From an uncultured Roseibium sp. (GTDB lineage Bacteria > Pseudomonadota > Alphaproteobacteria > Rhizobiales > Stappiaceae): DNA of 64,000 nt. The notes under the pieces are model-generated. The model was given only the letters and a program-made list of their open reading frames with translations, was not told where the DNA came from and did not search any database. The stretch is from assembly GCF_947494555.1 (NCBI RefSeq), contig NZ_CANLVF010000004.1, forward strand, positions 620,001-684,000, written 5' to 3'. Below, one piece after another: positions 29,776 through 38,411 of this stretch (the stretch's first letter is position 1; the number at the start of each line of letters is the position of its first letter). The position numbers and the translations under genes were made by a program.

Positions 29776-30654
29776 TTACGCTTCACCCATTTCGGATCGC
29801 AAAATGAAATCGGCGCATTCGCTCGTCAGATCCCTGAAGCGCGTGCGTTGCCGGACATAGAGCCAGACCTCGCGTTTATCGGGCAGATCGGGGATCGGTC
29901 TGAAAGCGGTCGATTCCGGAATGAAACGGGCAACGGTTTCGGGCAGCACGGTGACCCAGTCCCCGGTCCTGACCATCGTGATCAGCGAATGGGTGTTGTG
30001 GATCGTGACTTCGGTGTTTTGAATCGCGTCCACGAGGCTCGGCGTTTTGATCAGGTCACACAAGGCATTGCGGATGAAAGGGGCCTTGGCGACATCTGCA
30101 ATCCGGGGCGGGGCGCTCCGGGTCATCAACGGATGATCGGCGGCGCAAACGAGACCAAACCTGTCTTCGAACATCGGTGTTGACGTGACCCCATTGAGCG
30201 GATGATGCCCCGACGCGATGCCGACATCGGCTTTGCCCTGGGCAAGCGCGTCGAGTACCTGCTGTGTGTCCGTGTCACGCAATTCCACCTTAATGCCCGG
30301 AAACATCCGCGTCATGTGTTCCAGAACGGACGGGAACAGGATTGCCGCGACCGAGGGAACGGAGACGATGCGGATCAGCCCCTGCGAGGCGTCCGCCGCA
30401 GCTTCAATGCTGCGAACTGTCTGCTCGAACTGGCGCACCTGTCTGAGGGAAAGTTCAAACACCTGCTCGCCCAGGGGAGACAGGCGGTTCTTCCGTTCGC
30501 CCTCGAACAGTCTCTTGCCCAGATGGTCTTCCAGCTGCTTCAGCGTCATCGATATTGCGGATTGCGTGCGGCCGAGTCGGTCGGCTGCTTCGGCGAGACT
30601 GCCGGTCTGGGCCACGGTGCAAAAGCAACGCAGCATTTCGATCTTGATGGACAC
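29776..30654 (-). CDS. LysR-family regulator, probable controller of the 30.7-38.4 kb operon
   Basis: Regulator of 292 aa. The helix-turn-helix is at residues 17-45 (GSLAEAADRLGRTQSAISMTLKQLE) and the effector-binding domain starts near 92 (LIRIVSVPSVAAILFPS). It resembles CysB/Cbl- and NocR-like LysRs in its spacing, but its inducer cannot be told. It is divergent from the aldehyde dehydrogenase gene with a 103-base AT-rich gap. Confidence 0.9.
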   Translation of the reverse strand: MSIKIEMLRCFCTVAQTGSLAEAADRLGRTQSAISMTLKQLEDHLGKRLFEGERKNRLSPLGEQVFELSLRQVRQFEQTVRSIEAAADASQGLIRIVSVPSVAAILFPSVLEHMTRMFPGIKVELRDTDTQQVLDALAQGKADVGIASGHHPLNGVTSTPMFEDRFGLVCAADHPLMTRSAPPRIADVAKAPFIRNALCDLIKTPSLVDAIQNTEVTIHNTHSLITMVRTGDWVTVLPETVARFIPESTAFRPIPDLPDKREVWLYVRQRTRFRDLTSECADFILRSEMGEA

Positions 30655-30757
30655 GTTTCAATTTTTCTAAAGTTAAATTAAGTTTATTGAGTTTGACTGA
30701 TGTCACGCCAGATGTCCATGCTGTTAACCAACGGAATTTCTGGACCTGGAACCCTAA
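30655..30757. promoter_or_regulatory. Divergent control region between LysR and aldehyde dehydrogenase genes
   Basis: AT-rich gap of 103 bases in an otherwise GC-rich region. Around 30668-30700 it holds TTAAATTAAGTTTATTGAG, which contains overlapping T-N11-A arrangements as used by LysR proteins. It must contain the promoters of both divergent genes. The exact operator cannot be fixed by eye. Confidence 0.5.
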
Positions 30758-32203
30758 GTGACACACCTCAACCTGATTGCCGGCACCTGGCAGGCCGGGA
30801 CAAGCGTAATCGAGAACCGAAACCCGTCCGATCTGAGCGACCTGATCGGATTGTTCGCGCAGGCAGGTCCGGATCAGCTGGATCTCACGCTGGAGCGCGC
30901 CCGCACCGCGCAAGCCGAATGGGCGTCCTACGGCCTGGAGCGCAAGCAGTCGGTCCTGATGAAAATCGGCACCGAATTGATGGCTCGAGCCGAAGAACTC
31001 GGGAGGCTGCTCTCACGCGAGGAGGGTAAGCCGCTTGCCGAAGGCAGGGGAGAAGTCTACCGGGCCGGGCAGTTTTTTACATACTATGCAGCCGAATGCC
31101 TGCGCCAGACCGGCGAAAATGCCGACAGTGTGCGCGGCGGCGTCGAAATCGATGTGCGGCGCGAGCCCGTGGGTGTCGTGGCGATCATTTCCCCCTGGAA
31201 TTTCCCGACCGCGACAGCGTCCTGGAAAATCGCTCCGGCACTCTGCTACGGCAATGCGGTTGTCTGGAAACCGGCGAATATCACGCCCGCATCCGCAGTT
31301 GCGCTGACGGAGATCATCGAAAAGCAGGACATCCCGAAGGGACTGTTCAGCCTTGTGATGGGGTCCGGCCGTTCTATTGGTCAGCGGCTCGTGGAGAGCC
31401 CGCAGGTGAATGCGATCTCGTTCACCGGGTCGGTCGCGGTCGGCAAGGGAATCGCGTCTTCGGCTATCCAGAACCTGACCAAGGTGCAGATGGAGATGGG
31501 CTCGAAGAACGCTCTGGCCGTGATGGATGACGCGGATCTCGATCTTGCCGTTACGCTCGCGCTTGGCGGTGCTTTTGGTGGAACCGGGCAAAAATGTACC
31601 GCGTCTTCGAGACTGGTCGTCCACGAGCGCGTCCACGATGCCTTTGTCGACAAGCTTGTGGCAGGCGCCGAGGCGATGACCGTCGGCCATGCGCTTGAAG
31701 AGGGAACCCAGATGGGACCTGTCGTGAGCGGTGAGCAGCTTCAGGAGAATCTCGACTATGTGGAGCTGGGCAAGTCGGAGGGGGCCGAGCTCGCGTGTGG
31801 CGGTGCGCGCCTGGAGCGCGCGCACGAAGGCTATTACATGTCTCCGGGCGTTTTCCTGAACACCAACAACACCATGCGCATCAACCGCGAAGAAATGTTC
31901 GCGCCGCTGACAAGCGTAATCAGGGTCGGCAGTTACGACGAGGCTTTGGCGACGGTGAACGACACGAATTTTGGGCTCACCTCCGGGATCGTCACGAAGA
32001 GCCTCGCCAGGGCTACCGACTTCCGCCGCAACGCGCGCACCGGTGTGGTGACCGTCAATCTGCCGACGGCCGGTACCGATTACCACGTCCCGTTCGGCGG
32101 CCGGGGCGACAGTTCGTATGGCCCGAGAGAACAGGGCAAGGCCGCAGCGGAATTCTACACGACGGTCAAGACCGCCTATATCAGCGCGGGGAGCCCGGAC
32201 TGA
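30758..32203 (+). CDS. NAD(P)-dependent aldehyde dehydrogenase
   Basis: Aldehyde dehydrogenase of 481 aa. Family landmarks are IISPWNFP (about 143-150), the cofactor lysine WKPANITPAS, the FTGSVAVGKG turn, the catalytic glutamate segment MEMGSKNA and the nucleophilic cysteine in GGTGQKCTASSR (about C281). It resembles alpha-ketoglutaric-semialdehyde dehydrogenases, which oxidise the last intermediate of hydroxyproline and sugar-acid routes, but the substrate is not certain. The start is a GTG. Its stop overlaps the ATG of the dipeptidase gene. It is the first gene of a probable six-gene operon. Confidence 0.9.
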   Translation: MTHLNLIAGTWQAGTSVIENRNPSDLSDLIGLFAQAGPDQLDLTLERARTAQAEWASYGLERKQSVLMKIGTELMARAEELGRLLSREEGKPLAEGRGEVYRAGQFFTYYAAECLRQTGENADSVRGGVEIDVRREPVGVVAIISPWNFPTATASWKIAPALCYGNAVVWKPANITPASAVALTEIIEKQDIPKGLFSLVMGSGRSIGQRLVESPQVNAISFTGSVAVGKGIASSAIQNLTKVQMEMGSKNALAVMDDADLDLAVTLALGGAFGGTGQKCTASSRLVVHERVHDAFVDKLVAGAEAMTVGHALEEGTQMGPVVSGEQLQENLDYVELGKSEGAELACGGARLERAHEGYYMSPGVFLNTNNTMRINREEMFAPLTSVIRVGSYDEALATVNDTNFGLTSGIVTKSLARATDFRRNARTGVVTVNLPTAGTDYHVPFGGRGDSSYGPREQGKAAAEFYTTVKTAYISAGSPD

Positions 32204-33180
32204 TGCGGATCGATGCGCTGCAATACGCCAACTGGTCGGAGAAGATCTTCCGGCAACTGCGCGAAGGCGGCGTCGACGCGATCCATGTGACGGTCGCCTA
32301 CCATGAAAATTTCAGGGAAACCGTGCTCAACTTCGAGAAGTGGAACCGCTGGTTCGAGCAGTTTCCAGATCTCATCATGAAGGGTGAATGGACCTCGGAT
32401 ATCGATGAGGCGCGGCGGACCGGGCGAACGGCGGTCTTTTTCGGCTTCCAGAACCCGTCGCCGATCGAGGACGATATCGGACTGGTCGAGATCGTGCACA
32501 CGCTGGGTGCCCGGTTCATGCAGCTCACCTACAACAACCAGTCGCTGCTCGCGACGGGATGCTACGAGAGCGAAGACACCGGCATCACGCGCATGGGGCG
32601 TCAGGTCATCAAGGAGATGAACCGGGTCGGCCTGGTCGTCGACATGAGCCATTCGGCCGACCGTTCGACCATTGAGGCCGCGGAGATTTCCGAGAGGCCG
32701 ATCGCGATCACCCACGCCAATCCGTATGACTGGGCACCGGCACTCAGGAACAAGCGCGACGATGTCATCCGCGCCGTGACCGAGCACGGCGGGATGCTGG
32801 GGTTCTCCATTTACCCGCACCACCTGAAAGACAAGTCTGCCTGCAGCCTCGACAGCTTCTGCGAGATGATCGCCCGCACGGCCGACAAATACGGCGTTGA
32901 GCATCTCGGCCTCGGCACGGACCTGTGCCAGGACCAGCCCGACAGCGTGGTCGAATGGATGCGGGTGGGACGCTGGACCAGGGAAATCGACTATGGCGAA
33001 GGCTCGGCAGCGACGCCCGGATTTCCAGACATGCCAAACTGGTTCCGCGACAACAGGGACTTCGGCAATATCGAAGACGGGCTTCGCACGGTCGGAATGA
33101 ACGATGCCGAGATTTCCGGGATCATGGGGGGCAACTGGTACAGGTTCTTCGCTGACGGTTTCGGGAGGAAGTCCCGGTGA
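32203..33180 (+). CDS. Membrane dipeptidase (peptidase M19) family zinc enzyme
   Basis: TIM-barrel amidohydrolase of 325 aa of the renal-dipeptidase family. Visible pieces are DAIHVTVAYHEN near the first strand (the usual D-x-H-x-D is altered), QLTYNNQSLLATGC, the strand VDMSHSA, the metal histidine in AITHANPY, and the C-terminal GGNWYRFF. The start ATG overlaps the aldehyde dehydrogenase stop (TGATG). Some M19-like proteins act on amides or lactones rather than dipeptides; in this operon hydrolysis of an N-acyl or amide bond of an imported compound is plausible. Confidence 0.85.
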   Translation: MRIDALQYANWSEKIFRQLREGGVDAIHVTVAYHENFRETVLNFEKWNRWFEQFPDLIMKGEWTSDIDEARRTGRTAVFFGFQNPSPIEDDIGLVEIVHTLGARFMQLTYNNQSLLATGCYESEDTGITRMGRQVIKEMNRVGLVVDMSHSADRSTIEAAEISERPIAITHANPYDWAPALRNKRDDVIRAVTEHGGMLGFSIYPHHLKDKSACSLDSFCEMIARTADKYGVEHLGLGTDLCQDQPDSVVEWMRVGRWTREIDYGEGSAATPGFPDMPNWFRDNRDFGNIEDGLRTVGMNDAEISGIMGGNWYRFFADGFGRKSR

Positions 33181-34862
33181 CGCCGGCTCAGCCGCATATT
33201 CCCCGGCGGGACCCGGCAAAGATGATGCGACTCAGCCGCCTGGGGTCTTTGCATCAGTGCCGCCTCAGCTTCATGCGGATCCTGATGCGCCGCATGGCAC
33301 AGGAGAACTGGCAGTTTTCACGCCCCGTGTTCGACATCGACCGCAAAGGTGTTGGCCGGGCGGTCTATACGGCGATGGGACCGGAGCGTGCCTATTCACT
33401 CGTCGCCTTTGCCCATGATCTACCGGCCGAAAAACGGTCGGACCGGGTCATTGCCGATGCCTGGGACACAACCTTTGCACTCTTTGACGGGATCCCGGAC
33501 GAGAGCGATATCGAGCGTCTGGCCGAGAATGTTCCGTTGCAGGAGGCGGGACGGGTCAGCCAGCGCGAATTGTCGCTGTCGCGGGCAAACCGGTCGGCCC
33601 GGCTCTGGACCCATGTGGTTGACCGGCTGGCGTCGGGACAGCAACCGGACCTCCAGCAGATTGAAGCCGTCGGCTACCTGATGCGGACGACCGCGGTCTA
33701 CGGGTCAGGCAAATTCGGCGCTGCCGACCGGGATGTGATTTCTGATCGGGCGGAAATGCAGCCGCCATTTCAGGCCGAAATGCTGTCCGTCTATCTGACA
33801 AGGACCTTCGTCCGCGATCTCGTGAATCACATTGCCGCAAGCCGTGGCGGCACGCAGGCGGTCTCGCTGGACCCGGCAATCGCGCGGGGGCTGGGAATTG
33901 GCAATTCCACCGGCCTCGGCATGGCGCCCTTTATCGTCAATCACCCGATCCTCTTCAACAACTGGATGATGGTGCGCGAGGAGGCGATATCCCGCGTGCG
34001 CGCCGTGGCGCGGGCGGCTCCCGAGGACGTGAAAACCTTCGGGCAACTCGTCAAACAAAGCATTTTGTCCGTGGAGCACTGGCGATCCGAACACCCGGTG
34101 CAGCTCGACAAGCTGGTGCGGCTGAAGGCCGACCTCAAAACCCTGGCGCAGCATCTCTCCAGTTGGGATGCGACTGTGGAATGTCCCTGGAACACCCTGA
34201 TCGAATGGTCGGAGAGATCCTTGAGCGAAGAAGGGCAGGAACTCGTCGCCTCGCTCATTCTGGAACCCTATGGCGCACTCGTCGACGGATTGGCGGGTTG
34301 CATGGCCGACGGCAATCCCGATGCATTCCGCATCGATGGTTCGATGCCGGTGAGCGCGGTCAGGGCACTCTTGCAAGAGTGCTTCGGGTGGGCGTTGGAC
34401 CTCGACTGGAGCGATCCCGCCAATTGCGCACGCGCCTGGTACGTTTCTGAGGAAAAGCTGGAGCCGCGCATGGGCGAACGGTTCGAGGAACCGATTGCCG
34501 CTTATGAACAACCCCTTGCGCCTGCGCGCGATGCTGCTGCCGCGTTTTCCGCGCTGGAGGCATGGGACCCGGCAGATACGGTTGCCCGGTTTCTCCTGCA
34601 ACATCCGGAGCACCGGCACACCGTCAGGCGGGCGCAGATGGGGCGTGTCGCACCTTATGGCGAAATCCGCGACAACACGATCAGCACGTCGGTCATGCCT
34701 GTCGACATGCTGCGTGCGAAGCTGTCGTTTTTCGGAGCAACGCATTTCGATCCCCGCTCCGACCGGTGGGTGCGGATCTGCATGTATGCAGGTGCGCCTT
34801 ATCCCGAAGAGCTGACACCCGGCAATGCCGACCTCTGGGTCTATCCGGAGACGGCCACATGA
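33177..34862 (+). CDS. Unknown 561-aa protein of the catabolic operon
   Basis: I do not recognise any named domain. The GTG start overlaps the dipeptidase stop (GTGA) and its own stop overlaps the next ATG, so it is translated as part of the set. It has no signal peptide or membrane helix and is rich in Trp, Arg and Glu. Notable stretches are WQFSRPVFDIDRKGVGRAVYT near the start, GLGIGNSTGLGMAPFIVNHP in the middle, and a C-terminal RVAPYGEIRDNTISTSVMP. The glycine-rich middle motif could bind a nucleotide or phosphate, which is only a guess. Codon use matches its neighbours. Confidence 0.85.
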   Translation: MTPAQPHIPRRDPAKMMRLSRLGSLHQCRLSFMRILMRRMAQENWQFSRPVFDIDRKGVGRAVYTAMGPERAYSLVAFAHDLPAEKRSDRVIADAWDTTFALFDGIPDESDIERLAENVPLQEAGRVSQRELSLSRANRSARLWTHVVDRLASGQQPDLQQIEAVGYLMRTTAVYGSGKFGAADRDVISDRAEMQPPFQAEMLSVYLTRTFVRDLVNHIAASRGGTQAVSLDPAIARGLGIGNSTGLGMAPFIVNHPILFNNWMMVREEAISRVRAVARAAPEDVKTFGQLVKQSILSVEHWRSEHPVQLDKLVRLKADLKTLAQHLSSWDATVECPWNTLIEWSERSLSEEGQELVASLILEPYGALVDGLAGCMADGNPDAFRIDGSMPVSAVRALLQECFGWALDLDWSDPANCARAWYVSEEKLEPRMGERFEEPIAAYEQPLAPARDAAAAFSALEAWDPADTVARFLLQHPEHRHTVRRAQMGRVAPYGEIRDNTISTSVMPVDMLRAKLSFFGATHFDPRSDRWVRICMYAGAPYPEELTPGNADLWVYPETAT

Positions 34863-35485
34863 ACCGGTCGCTGAACGAGATCGAGGCCACGGCGAAACGC
34901 GCAACGCGCGGTGCCGGATATTCGTGGGGCCTTGCGGAGGAAGCGTCCAAGGCAACGCGCTGGCTCTCAAGACAAGGGCAAGATGGTGTGGCCGCACTGG
35001 CCGCGCTTCTGGACAAGGGGCTCGCCCAACCGGCGGACCATCGACCCTGCGCCGCCGACGAAGTCTGGCGTAACGATGGGGATCTGTGTCCCCTCGCGAC
35101 GGGTGCATTCCTTTCCGACTGCGCGCAGGGCCTGCGTTCGGGACCGGTCACCATGCAGCGGGTGGCAGTGCCGCTGTTCATTCTGCCATTTGCCGCCAAT
35201 GCGGCGTCGGAGCTGAGGTGCTGCGTAAGGGTCGAGATGGACGGCCAGGTTGCGATGACCGACGGCGGCAATCTTCAGTGCCCTGACGTGCTGCCGGAGC
35301 TGGCTGAGCGGATAACGGTTCAAACAAGCGAAACGGCACCGCCCTGGCGGCCGCGCGGCGCGCAGATGTGCCCCGATCCGGACAGCTGGGATCGGCTTGC
35401 AGTGCTTGCGCATCGCACCTACGCGCCGGCCACCGAGGAATCGCGCCTGCGTGGCGCAGGTGCAGGCCTCTCCGACAATGACTGA
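34859..35485 (+). CDS. DUF3726-family protein
   Basis: Protein of 208 aa whose opening SLNEIEATAKRATRGAGYSWGLAEEA follows the DUF3726 pattern. The function of the family is not established. Four cysteines occur in the middle third. It overlaps the stop of the 561-aa protein (ATGA) and precedes the Ldh2-type dehydrogenase by 12 bases. A tight link to the 561-aa protein is suggested by the translational coupling. Confidence 0.82.
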   Translation: MNRSLNEIEATAKRATRGAGYSWGLAEEASKATRWLSRQGQDGVAALAALLDKGLAQPADHRPCAADEVWRNDGDLCPLATGAFLSDCAQGLRSGPVTMQRVAVPLFILPFAANAASELRCCVRVEMDGQVAMTDGGNLQCPDVLPELAERITVQTSETAPPWRPRGAQMCPDPDSWDRLAVLAHRTYAPATEESRLRGAGAGLSDND

Positions 35486-35497
35486 CAAGGTGCAATC

Positions 35498-36508
35498 ATG
35501 ACCGAAACCCGGACCCTCTCGCTTGCTGAAATCGAAGATCTCTCGTTTCGGGCGCTTGTGGCGGCAGGCACATCGGAAAAGAGCGCCCGCGCTCTTGCGC
35601 TTGCCACGGCGGCAACGGAAGCGGACGGGGTTGCCAGTCACGGACTGGCCTATATCCCGATCTATTGCGAACATGTCCGCTGCGGCAAGGTCGACGGCAA
35701 GGCGGAACCTATCCTCGCTCGCCCAAGACCCGGCGTGGTTGCCGTCGATGCCGCGACGGGTTTTGCGCATGCTGCGATCGACCTTGGATTTGAGACGCTT
35801 GTCCCCGCGGCACGCGAGCAGGGCATTGCCGTCCTGACGATCCGAAACAGCTACAATTGCGGGGTTCTCGGCTATCACACCTTCCGGCTGGCTCAGGAGG
35901 GCCTGGTCGGGCTCGGGTTCACGAACGCACCGGCATCCATCGCACCTTCGGGTGGCGCAAAGCCTGTCGTCGGCACGAACCCGTTTTCCGTTGCCGTTCC
36001 GGGGACTGACGGTCAGCCCGCCCTGCTGATCGACCAGAGCGCCAGCACGATTGCCAAGAGCGAAGTCATGAAGCATGCGCGCGAGGGCAAACCGATCCCG
36101 ATCGGCTGGGCGCTGGACGGTGACGGAAATCCGACCACCGACCCGGAAGTCGGGCTCAAGGGATCGATGGCACCGTCGGGCGGATACAAGGGTGTCGGGG
36201 TCGCGCTTTTGACGGAAGTCATGGCCGCTGCGCTCACCGGAGCGACGCTCGGAATAAACGCCTCGCCATTTTCGGGCACCGCAGGCGGTCCGCCGCGGAC
36301 GGGACAATGCTTCATTGCAATCGACCCGGGTGTCACATCAGGGGGCGGTTTCAACGCCATTGTTTCCGAGCTGGTTGAAGCGATCCGGTTTCAAGAGGGG
36401 GCGCATCTACCCGGTGACGGGCGGCGTTCCAGGCGATTGGCGGCACGGGGAGATGGTGTTGCCGTGAATGCCGCGACGCTGGCCAGAATAGACGCTCTTC
36501 TTACCTGA
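35498..36508 (+). CDS. Ldh2/MDH-type NAD(P)-dependent dehydrogenase
   Basis: Oxidoreductase of 336 aa of the malate/L-lactate/sulfolactate/ureidoglycolate dehydrogenase family, which also contains delta1-piperideine-2-carboxylate/pyrroline-2-carboxylate reductase (DpkA). Visible motifs are DGVASHGLAYIP near the start (catalytic His region), VRNS-like RNSYNCGVLGYH, and GTNPFSVAVPG. The C-terminal GGYKGVGVALLTEV is also typical. In this operon it could reduce a cyclic imine or oxidise a 2-hydroxy acid. It follows DUF3726 by 12 bases with no terminator between. Confidence 0.87.
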   Translation: MTETRTLSLAEIEDLSFRALVAAGTSEKSARALALATAATEADGVASHGLAYIPIYCEHVRCGKVDGKAEPILARPRPGVVAVDAATGFAHAAIDLGFETLVPAAREQGIAVLTIRNSYNCGVLGYHTFRLAQEGLVGLGFTNAPASIAPSGGAKPVVGTNPFSVAVPGTDGQPALLIDQSASTIAKSEVMKHAREGKPIPIGWALDGDGNPTTDPEVGLKGSMAPSGGYKGVGVALLTEVMAAALTGATLGINASPFSGTAGGPPRTGQCFIAIDPGVTSGGGFNAIVSELVEAIRFQEGAHLPGDGRRSRRLAARGDGVAVNAATLARIDALLT

Positions 36509-36587
36509 ACGGCCGGGCAGCCAACCGGGGAGCTGCCGGCACCAATCCACCCGGAAAGACAGGGCACATGTGAACAGGAGGTCACAC

Positions 36588-38411
36588 ATGTCAATCAAAC
36601 AACCTTTCACCGATCTTCAGATCAAGAAATCTGCCGGTGGGTTTTACGAGGGTCACAGCGTCGAGATCGCCATCTTGAGCAAGGCGATCATGGTGGCGCT
36701 GGTCATCTGGGCACTGGTTTGGCCCGCGAACGCTAATGGCGTTCTGGGGAGCCTGAACTGGCGCTTGCTGGAGGACTTCAACGGATTTTACATCGTCATC
36801 GTCGGGCTGTTCTCTTTCTTTCTGCTGGTGATCGCCATTTTGCCGCGTACGGGCAGCCGGGTCATGGGGGTGCCGGGTGAAGCCCCCGAATTCTCGACAT
36901 TCTCCTGGTTTTCCATGATGTTCGGCGCGGGGCTCGGAGTCGGTCTCATGGTCTTCGCCACAGCGGAACCGCTTGGTCTCTGGGGGTCGAATCCGCTCGT
37001 GCTGGCCGGTGACGTTGTCGCCAACAGCGAGGACGCGGTCCAGTCCGGGTACCGGTACACGTTCCTGCACTATGGCTTTCACGCCTGGGCAATTTATGTC
37101 GTGACGGGGCTTTCGCTGGCTTACTATGCCTATACGCGTGGGATGCCCCTGACCATCCGGACCGCGCTGACACCTTTGTTCGGCCGGCTGATGAACGGCT
37201 TTCTTGGCCATGTCGTCGATGTGCTCGGCGTTGTCGCCACTATCCTCGGCGTCTCGGTGACCATCGGCTTCGGCGTGTCGCAGTTCATTGACGGTCTTTA
37301 CGCCATCACCGGCATGCAGTGGATGATGGATACGTCCGGCGATGCACCCGCACCGGGCACGGTCGGTTTGATCACCGGTCTCGTCGTGATCATGGGACTG
37401 TCGATCATCTCGGCGGTTTCCGGGGTCGGGCGCGGTGTCAAATACCTGTCCAATCTCAATCTGGTGCTGTCGATCATCCTGCTCCTGACCTTCGTGGTCT
37501 TCGGTTCGTTCCTGTTCGCGATGACGACCTATGCATCCGCATTCGCCGACTACATTCTTCACTATGTTTCGCTGAGTTTCGGTGCGTTCGGCCCGCAGTC
37601 CCCGGCTGAGTTTGCCGCAGCGCTGCCACCGGAGGCCGCTCCCTTTGCGGACGCCCTGAGAACGGGCGCGACGAATGCCTGGGGATCGTTCGACGCGTTC
37701 AAGTCAGGGCTCGAAGGTGACGCCGCAGCGTTGCCGGAGAACGTTCTTGCCGCTGCCTATGCAGCCGGTGAACCCGGACGGCAGTTCGGCTGGCAGGCCG
37801 GTTGGACCACATTCTACTGGGCCTGGTGGATCGCGTTTTCTCCCTTCGTGGGACTGTTCCTCGCACGCATTTCCAAGGGCCGCTCGGTGCGCGAATTCAT
37901 CATTGGATGCGTCATCGCACCTGCGCTCGTCTGTTTCGCCTGGATGACGATCCTCGGTGGAACGGCAATCGATCTGGAACTGACGGGCGGTGCGGATGGC
38001 GCGATCATCGGGGCGTCCAACACGGCGAAACTTTTTGTCACGCTCGGGCAGATGCTGTCCGGAGGGTTCCTGTCAGCCATCACCGTGATGTGCGTTGTCC
38101 TGATCCTGACATTCCTGGTTACGTCCGCGGATTCCGGCATCCTTGTGATGAACACGATCATGTCCGGCGGAGCGCAGCAGACAGGCATCAAGCACCGGAT
38201 CGTCTGGGGCGTCATCCTGACACTGGTGATCGGGACATTGCTGATTGCCGGCAAGACCAATGGCGGCGCAGACCCGATGGAAGCTCTGAAAAGCGCCATG
38301 ATCATCGGTGCCCTTCCGTTTACGATGGTTATGGGTCTGATGTGTATCGCGCTGGGCAAGGCGCTCTACCGCGATGGCCTGCGCGAAAGAGCCGTGGTTC
38401 CGGCAGAATAG
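36588..38411 (+). CDS. BCCT-family betaine/carnitine/choline-type transporter
   Basis: Secondary transporter of 607 aa with twelve membrane helices. The BCCT hallmarks are present: MFGAGLGVGLMVFATAEPL in helix 3-4 and the helix-8 signature FYWAWWIAFSPFVGLFLARIS holding the tryptophan box that binds quaternary ammonium groups. An AGGAGG box lies eight bases before the ATG at 36588. An 80-base gap separates it from the dehydrogenase gene. The short hydrophilic tails suggest uptake for catabolism rather than osmotic control, so the operon substrate is likely a betaine-like compound. Confidence 0.92.
   Translation: MSIKQPFTDLQIKKSAGGFYEGHSVEIAILSKAIMVALVIWALVWPANANGVLGSLNWRLLEDFNGFYIVIVGLFSFFLLVIAILPRTGSRVMGVPGEAPEFSTFSWFSMMFGAGLGVGLMVFATAEPLGLWGSNPLVLAGDVVANSEDAVQSGYRYTFLHYGFHAWAIYVVTGLSLAYYAYTRGMPLTIRTALTPLFGRLMNGFLGHVVDVLGVVATILGVSVTIGFGVSQFIDGLYAITGMQWMMDTSGDAPAPGTVGLITGLVVIMGLSIISAVSGVGRGVKYLSNLNLVLSIILLLTFVVFGSFLFAMTTYASAFADYILHYVSLSFGAFGPQSPAEFAAALPPEAAPFADALRTGATNAWGSFDAFKSGLEGDAAALPENVLAAAYAAGEPGRQFGWQAGWTTFYWAWWIAFSPFVGLFLARISKGRSVREFIIGCVIAPALVCFAWMTILGGTAIDLELTGGADGAIIGASNTAKLFVTLGQMLSGGFLSAITVMCVVLILTFLVTSADSGILVMNTIMSGGAQQTGIKHRIVWGVILTLVIGTLLIAGKTNGGADPMEALKSAMIIGALPFTMVMGLMCIALGKALYRDGLRERAVVPAE

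Follow-up and report, generated by a model that had tools for sequence, protein, structure and literature searches.

A conserved operon around the P561–DUF3726 pair, with a probable role in the breakdown of an N-methyl betaine

Two described systems invite comparison with the operon presented here, a set of six genes in a stretch of 64,000 nucleotides (hereafter the window; positions 620,001 to 684,000 of contig NZ_CANLVF010000004.1, assembly GCF_947494555.1) from an uncultured Roseibium species. The operon encodes an aldehyde dehydrogenase (ALDH), an M19-like protein, a 561-residue protein that we call P561, a DUF3726 protein, an Ldh2-family protein and a BCCT carrier, and is preceded by a divergent LysR gene. 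The first of the described systems, homABCDER, is said to have appeared in Nature Microbiology in 2026; it reportedly consists of five genes and a regulator, occurs in Rhodobacterales, SAR11 and SAR116, and yields N-methylglutamate, which is handled by Mgd. The second, tgnABCD-R of Acinetobacter baylyi, reportedly characterized by Perchat in 2018, is said to act on an N-methylpyridinium carboxylate by opening the ring first, followed by ALDH and hydrolase steps, and to include a LysR regulator and a carrier.

How does the locus compare with these systems? The operon is real and conserved, and its unusual part is the P561–DUF3726 enzyme pair. Its substrate is very probably an N-methyl betaine whose breakdown includes an N-methyl imino or amino acid as an intermediate, and homarine (N-methylpicolinate) is the compound that we consider probable. 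Set beside homABCDER as reported, we find here a LysR gene with ALDH, M19-like, P561, DUF3726 and Ldh2 genes, in Rhodobacterales and in small genomes, a possible match; the BCCT gene is an extra in the window. Excerpts of one article report that Mgd takes part in homarine catabolism and cite work from 2026 on a conserved pathway for homarine (PMC13390433). That 2026 paper may describe this operon, whose homarine function has quite possibly been published already. With the tgn system, on what is reported of it, the locus would share the plan of ring opening first, then ALDH and hydrolase, with LysR and a carrier; it differs in that the candidate first enzyme has no recognized relatives and in the addition of an imine reductase or RidA. 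No family match to a TgnA/TgnB-like flavin mononucleotide oxygenase or reductase was found among the seven proteins, the rest of the genome not having been searched. A trigonelline route was set aside, as the operon holds no TgnA/B.

All six genes lie on the forward strand. The ALDH gene (30758-32203; GTG start; Pfam Aldedh) is overlapped at its stop by one base of the M19-like gene (32203-33180; Pfam Peptidase_M19), and overlaps of four bases each link the latter to the P561 gene (33177-34862; GTG start) and this to the DUF3726 gene (34859-35485; PF12525). The Ldh2 gene (35498-36508; Pfam Ldh_2) follows after 12 bases and the BCCT gene (36588-38411; Pfam BCCT), whose best start is the ATG at 36588 after AGGAGG, after a further 79. 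The LysR gene (29776-30654, reverse strand; Pfam LysR_substrate and HTH_1) diverges at 103 bases from the ALDH start. Coordinates and Pfam families thus agree with the gene order, overlaps and divergent regulator given in a preliminary description made from the sequence alone, as does its 12-base gap before Ldh2; only its 80 bases before BCCT are corrected to 79. When the LysR/ALDH intergenic regions of 77 loci were aligned with that of the window, TTCA-N7-TGAA was kept, which has the T-N11-A form of a LysR box; the putative site in the window (30657-30671, forward strand) differs from this consensus by one base, reading TTCA-N7-TAAA.

An exact peptide-pattern scan with P561 yielded 79 loci (more exist, to judge by the genome samples), mainly in Ruegeria, Leisingera and other Rhodobacterales, with some in Roseibium/Labrenzia and a few in other organisms. 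Within 7 kb of P561 they carry DUF3726 at all 79, M19 at 77, ALDH and LysR at 68 each, Ldh2 at 67 and BCCT at 41. The gene set recurs more often than by chance. The link between DUF3726 and the 561-residue family, which the preliminary description proposed to seek across Alphaproteobacteria, recurs as well: in a scan of the phylum, DUF3726 was present in 27 of 398 genomes, and a P561 relative was adjacent at all 28 of its places outside the genome of the window. In the class, a P561 profile search detected relatives in 53 of 385 genomes. Of 20 neighborhoods chosen from these, 14 show a clear DUF3726 gene and two a weak one (L168, L177), while the four in which none was seen (L170-L173) carry the most distant P561 copies. 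As judged by the neighbors retained across P561 neighborhoods, the core of the operon is M19-P561-DUF3726, with ALDH, Ldh2 and the carrier more variable. Some genomes of other classes of the phylum hold a rearranged set that has no Ldh2 and consists of a divergent LysR, ALDH, M19, BCCT, P561, DUF3726 and RidA. P561 also occurs in four genomes of 1.2-1.4 Mb (G423, G628, G580, G663; 94-99% complete), in which the stretches examined have a G+C content of 28-36%: at two of the loci (L159, L160) a ProXWV set precedes ALDH-M19-P561-DUF3726, and the two with the lowest G+C content (L161, L162) hold M19-P561-DUF3726 only. Such genomes might agree with the reported occurrence of hom genes in SAR11.

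What can be discerned about the two proteins at the center of this core? Neither has an assigned chemistry in Pfam or NCBIfam, in accordance with the preliminary description. Family searches gave no match of P561 to either collection; a profile of the family against PDB sequences found nothing convincing (best E 0.072, a helix-turn-helix regulator), and each Pfam match of individual members occurred in just one of 19 (best E 0.0061, spectrin repeats). An AlphaFold2 model built from 38 sequences (the window and 37 of the 79 loci) has a mean predicted local distance difference test score (pLDDT) of 81.7 and a predicted template modeling (TM) score of 0.86, and its comparison with PDB folds by Foldseek gave a best E of 0.31, with query-normalized TM scores of at most 0.12 among the best 50 of 98 rows. 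In the alignment, stretches rich in invariant polar residues lie around 174-184, 243-247, 424-446 and 525-531. As several of these lie in or near the lowest-confidence loops of the model (174-183, 245-247, 423-430, 435-446 and 529-531), we infer that they may be ligand or partner sites.

DUF3726, for which no papers turned up in the literature collection searched, is more easily placed. Its AlphaFold2 model (pLDDT 90) retrieves exclusively Ldh2-family folds at Foldseek ranks 1-27 against the PDB (best E 1.1e-4, three at E <= 0.001; query-normalized TM 0.37-0.51), and in hhalign its N-terminal 44 columns match the Ldh2 of the same operon with 32% identity (E 1.2e-4, probability 54). Its profile found nothing among PDB sequences (best E 1.5). 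On inspection, the consensus of two alignments, one of the window with 35 of the 79 loci (L053 dropped for a stop in the stretch, others omitted by choice) and one of the window with 21 further proteins, is devoid of the SHG, NCGxLGYH, GTNP and GYKG motifs of the operon's Ldh2. DUF3726 thus looks like a shortened Ldh2 relative, probably retained as a partner of P561. Together, the pair may constitute a new enzyme class, in which a catalytic subunit of unseen fold and a partner descended from an Ldh2 that had lost its activity would open the N-methylpyridinium ring of homarine by means of no known oxygenase family, beside an M19 protein that has lost part of its metal site and would have taken on a new task; we advance this tentatively, rating its chances a little short of even.

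The Ldh2 itself is a full-length member of its family by both its Pfam match and its alignment over residues 4-334 to the nearest PDB entry, the delta1-piperideine-2-carboxylate reductase 1wtj (186 bits). The residues that are catalytic in this family, His in SHG and Asp in the I/F-D motif, are kept, as in the Ldh2-family imine reductases (PDB 1wtj and 2cwf; DpkA); the difference from these systems is the presence here of a second, shortened relative, DUF3726, in which the motifs are missing. DpkA is presumably the name for reductases of the 1wtj type. In passages of one article, DpkA is termed an imine reductase and is used for the reductive methylamination of pyruvate (PMC6237917). Imine chemistry is also suggested by what is found in place of Ldh2. 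For this comparison we used a set of 129 loci (79 + 20 + 20 + 10), which includes loci at contig ends and distant P561 copies (L170-L173, L201 and L202; ~29-33% identity) and leaves L209 outside. Within 10 kb of P561, RidA occurs at 0 of the 84 loci with Ldh2 and at 12 of the 45 loci that have none (Fisher p 1e-6, the loci not being independent). The 12 are likewise not independent, yet they span more than one lineage (L109, L110 and L112-L116 from other classes; L127; L199 from Phaeobacter inhibens DSM 17395; L204 from Caballeronia; L056; L201).

The carriers point to the nature of the substrate. The BCCT protein scores 467.7 bits against a Pfam cut-off of 27, and its match to the NCBIfam glycine betaine BCCT model is below cut-off. 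As an observation of its own, an insertion of ~70 residues (about residues 333-404) divides both its Pfam match and its NCBIfam match into two segments. BCCT genes lie within 10 kb of P561 at 57 of the 129 loci and ProX-type genes at 16 others, together 73; ProXWV is found on the strand of the operon at four (L159, L160, Aminobacter aminovorans and Roseateles sp. XES5). BCCT and ProX-type carriers, two kinds unrelated to each other, usually import quaternary amines, and BCCT, or ProXWV in those four loci, belongs to the gene set. A transporter article has, in the portion consulted, a passage on BCCT and none on homarine (PMC10130141).

The M19-like protein matches its Pfam family from profile position 32 onward, and its nearest PDB structure, 2i5g, is labeled only 'amidohydrolase'. 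The binuclear zinc site of a dipeptidase consists of HxD, a bridging Glu, two His and an Asp. As in peptidase family M19 and renal dipeptidase, both His and the Asp are kept in all of 125 sequences, the window included. In contrast to these, the usual HxD place is occupied by LQY in 117 (a place matched by eye, as the alignments begin after it), and the bridging Glu position by Gln in 124, with one gap; ten sequences have some HxD within their first 45 residues, mostly a YHED further on and none at the LQY place. Since the usual HxD and bridging Glu are missing, dipeptide hydrolysis is unlikely, and the protein is probably not a dipeptidase.

A further indication comes from genes of the sarcosine oxidase type. 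Genes of the SoxA type (TIGR01372, E <= 1e-200) are found in 50 of the 53 P561 genomes, all but G429, G460 and G732, as against 97 of 332 others (p 2e-20, the lists compared by eye), and in all of 13 genomes selected among those to which the 79 loci belong. With regulator genes alone in between, sox genes adjoin the operon in Ruegeria sp. TM1040, P. inhibens 2.10 and Roseateles XES5; tetrameric sarcosine-oxidase-type genes also adjoin the second copy in DSM 17395, and genes of this type are no further than 5 kb from P561 at L015 and L045, both from Aliiroseovarius. The XES5 neighborhood contains purU and folD besides the sox genes, which suit the disposal of a folate-bound methyl group. The genome of the window has two full SoxA-type loci, one beside a GbdR-like regulator and one beside formaldehyde-oxidation genes, each a candidate for N-methylglutamate dehydrogenase.

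These characteristics suggest a pathway in which one LysR-controlled operon would allow a marine N-methyl betaine, with homarine the likeliest, to serve as a source of carbon and nitrogen. The betaine would be imported by BCCT, a carrier by family whose substrate is presumed, and P561 as the catalytic subunit, with DUF3726 as its partner, would be the first to act on the pyridinium ring, opening it between C5 and C6. ALDH could then oxidize the resulting semialdehyde to 2-(N-methylformamido)pentenedioate, from which the M19-like protein, by removing the formyl group or by another release of the enamine, would produce the N-methyl imine of 2-oxoglutarate. Ldh2, by family a DpkA-like imine reductase, would reduce this presumed substrate to N-methylglutamate, and a tetramer of the sarcosine oxidase or N-methylglutamate dehydrogenase type, encoded elsewhere, would demethylate it to glutamate. 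In Ldh2-less operons with RidA, the same imine would instead be hydrolyzed to 2-oxoglutarate and methylamine. Homarine fits by analogy with trigonelline breakdown: a C5-C6 cut of its ring would give an N-formyl, N-methyl 5-semialdehyde of the glutamate skeleton, whose further conversion would call for an ALDH, for deformylation and for an imine reductase. In its favor, NCBIfam places the ALDH nearest to C5 semialdehyde dehydrogenases (alpha-ketoglutaric semialdehyde/2,5-dioxovalerate dehydrogenase, 476 bits against a cut-off of 770). TgnA/TgnB open trigonelline and are judged, in the part of the study available, unlikely to act on homarine (Heal et al., 2021; PMC8269262), so that another ring-opening enzyme would be required.

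The same source portrays homarine as a highly abundant marine metabolite that has received little study (PMC8269262), and bacteria feeding on it pass its carbon and nitrogen on through the marine environment. If our reading is true, P561 would be a marker gene for homarine flux, and P561–DUF3726 would offer tractable ring-opening chemistry in a family that has no known structure. The exchange of RidA and Ldh2 predicts two measurable outcomes, methylamine or N-methylglutamate.

Several points weigh against homarine and the proposed steps. No result of the analysis names the substrate. For the carriers, neither BCCT nor ProX was recognized within 10 kb at 56 of the 129 loci, 12 of the 16 ProX genes are on the opposite strand and several are 28-30% identical, and carriers of polyamine, phosphonate and TRAP types lie near a few other loci. 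In P561 no cofactor site was recognized, and among the operon's genes there is no flavin reductase. The partial loss of the M19-like metal site makes a simple deformylation uncertain, and the named PDB chains closest to the ALDH include many betaine aldehyde dehydrogenases. RidA is present at just 12 of the 45 Ldh2-less loci, 33 having neither gene nearby, and two of the 12 cases are doubtful, one for its distance (L056, 9.4 kb away) and one for its distant P561 (L201). The co-occurrence with SoxA-type genes is confounded by lifestyle and kinship; moreover, because TIGR01372 takes in both sarcosine oxidase and N-methylglutamate dehydrogenase, the co-occurrence supports an N-methyl amino acid and not glutamate specifically. 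MTTB and DMGDH-type genes beside M19-P561-DUF3726 in some loci leave room for another betaine and suggest another demethylation route in some genomes. Finally, growth of Ruegeria pomeroyi DSS-3 on homarine is described in excerpts of one paper as less effective than on trigonelline; excerpts of another report that this strain took up homarine quickly.

Among the alternatives, one concerns the place of the pair in the pathway: P561–DUF3726 might be an N-demethylase or reductase acting on a later intermediate, the initial attack on the betaine falling to an enzyme encoded elsewhere. Neither a cofactor motif nor a complex has been shown for the pair, and the resemblance of DUF3726 to Ldh2 would allow a reductive role; however, the genes retained most consistently are those for M19, P561 and DUF3726, which persist at loci where ALDH and Ldh2 were not found, as would be expected of substrate-specific steps. 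We therefore regard a later role as somewhat unlikely; it overlaps the other readings, so that their likelihoods do not sum to one. Also unlikely, in our estimation, is that the same logic serves another N-methyl betaine, such as trigonelline, proline or hydroxyproline betaine, or pipecolate betaine, which P561–DUF3726 would cut first. The carriers are of a general betaine type, genes of MTTB, DMGDH-like and Rieske types occur in the vicinity of some copies, and the two diverged copies on one plasmid of P. inhibens DSM 17395 may mean two substrates. Against this, proline betaine routes are not known to need an ALDH, and we know of no N-methyl amino acid arising from the trigonelline route; the C5-semialdehyde-type ALDH and the imine reductase would suit homarine best. 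Trigonelline, in addition, has its own TgnA/TgnB route according to the part of the source available (PMC8269262).

The preliminary description had proposed a complete route for the import and breakdown of a quaternary or N-acylated amino acid. The first half of this proposal fares well, as the membership of BCCT/ProXWV in the gene set and the closeness of Ldh2 to an imine reductase make a quaternary amine probable. The second half, in which BCCT would import an N-acyl amino acid or peptide, M19 would split it, and ALDH and Ldh2 would finish the pieces, draws on M19 family membership and is highly improbable, given the residues at the HxD and bridging Glu places, the betaine carriers, and the sox, purU, folD and RidA neighbors that at part of the loci point to N-methyl chemistry. 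The dipeptide route was rejected on the M19 residues; ectoine and carnitine routes were set aside as the enzymes known for them do not match, no search for these having been made.

Several individual loci merit description. The two diverged copies of P. inhibens DSM 17395 (L199 and L209) share the plasmid pPGA1_262 (NC_018291.1); one has RidA and lies beside dmdA/dmdD-type genes, the other has BCCT and sarcosine-oxidase genes, and in the second copy the Ldh2 match is split over two reading frames, so that the gene looks broken. The distant P561 subfamily (~29-33% identity) extends to rhizobial megaplasmids and a haloarchaeon: on pSymB of Sinorhizobium meliloti (L201, 9001-12387) it occurs with a dipeptidase, an ABC carrier and an aminotransferase, and in Natrinema versiforme (L202) with ALDH and BCCT. 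MTTB-family methyltransferase and DMGDH-like genes are found at L128 (11825-14483), L123 and L174. In a genome of 1.4 Mb, a dimethylsulfoniopropionate demethylase gene scoring above the NCBIfam cut-off lies downstream of the operon (L159, 11314-12420).

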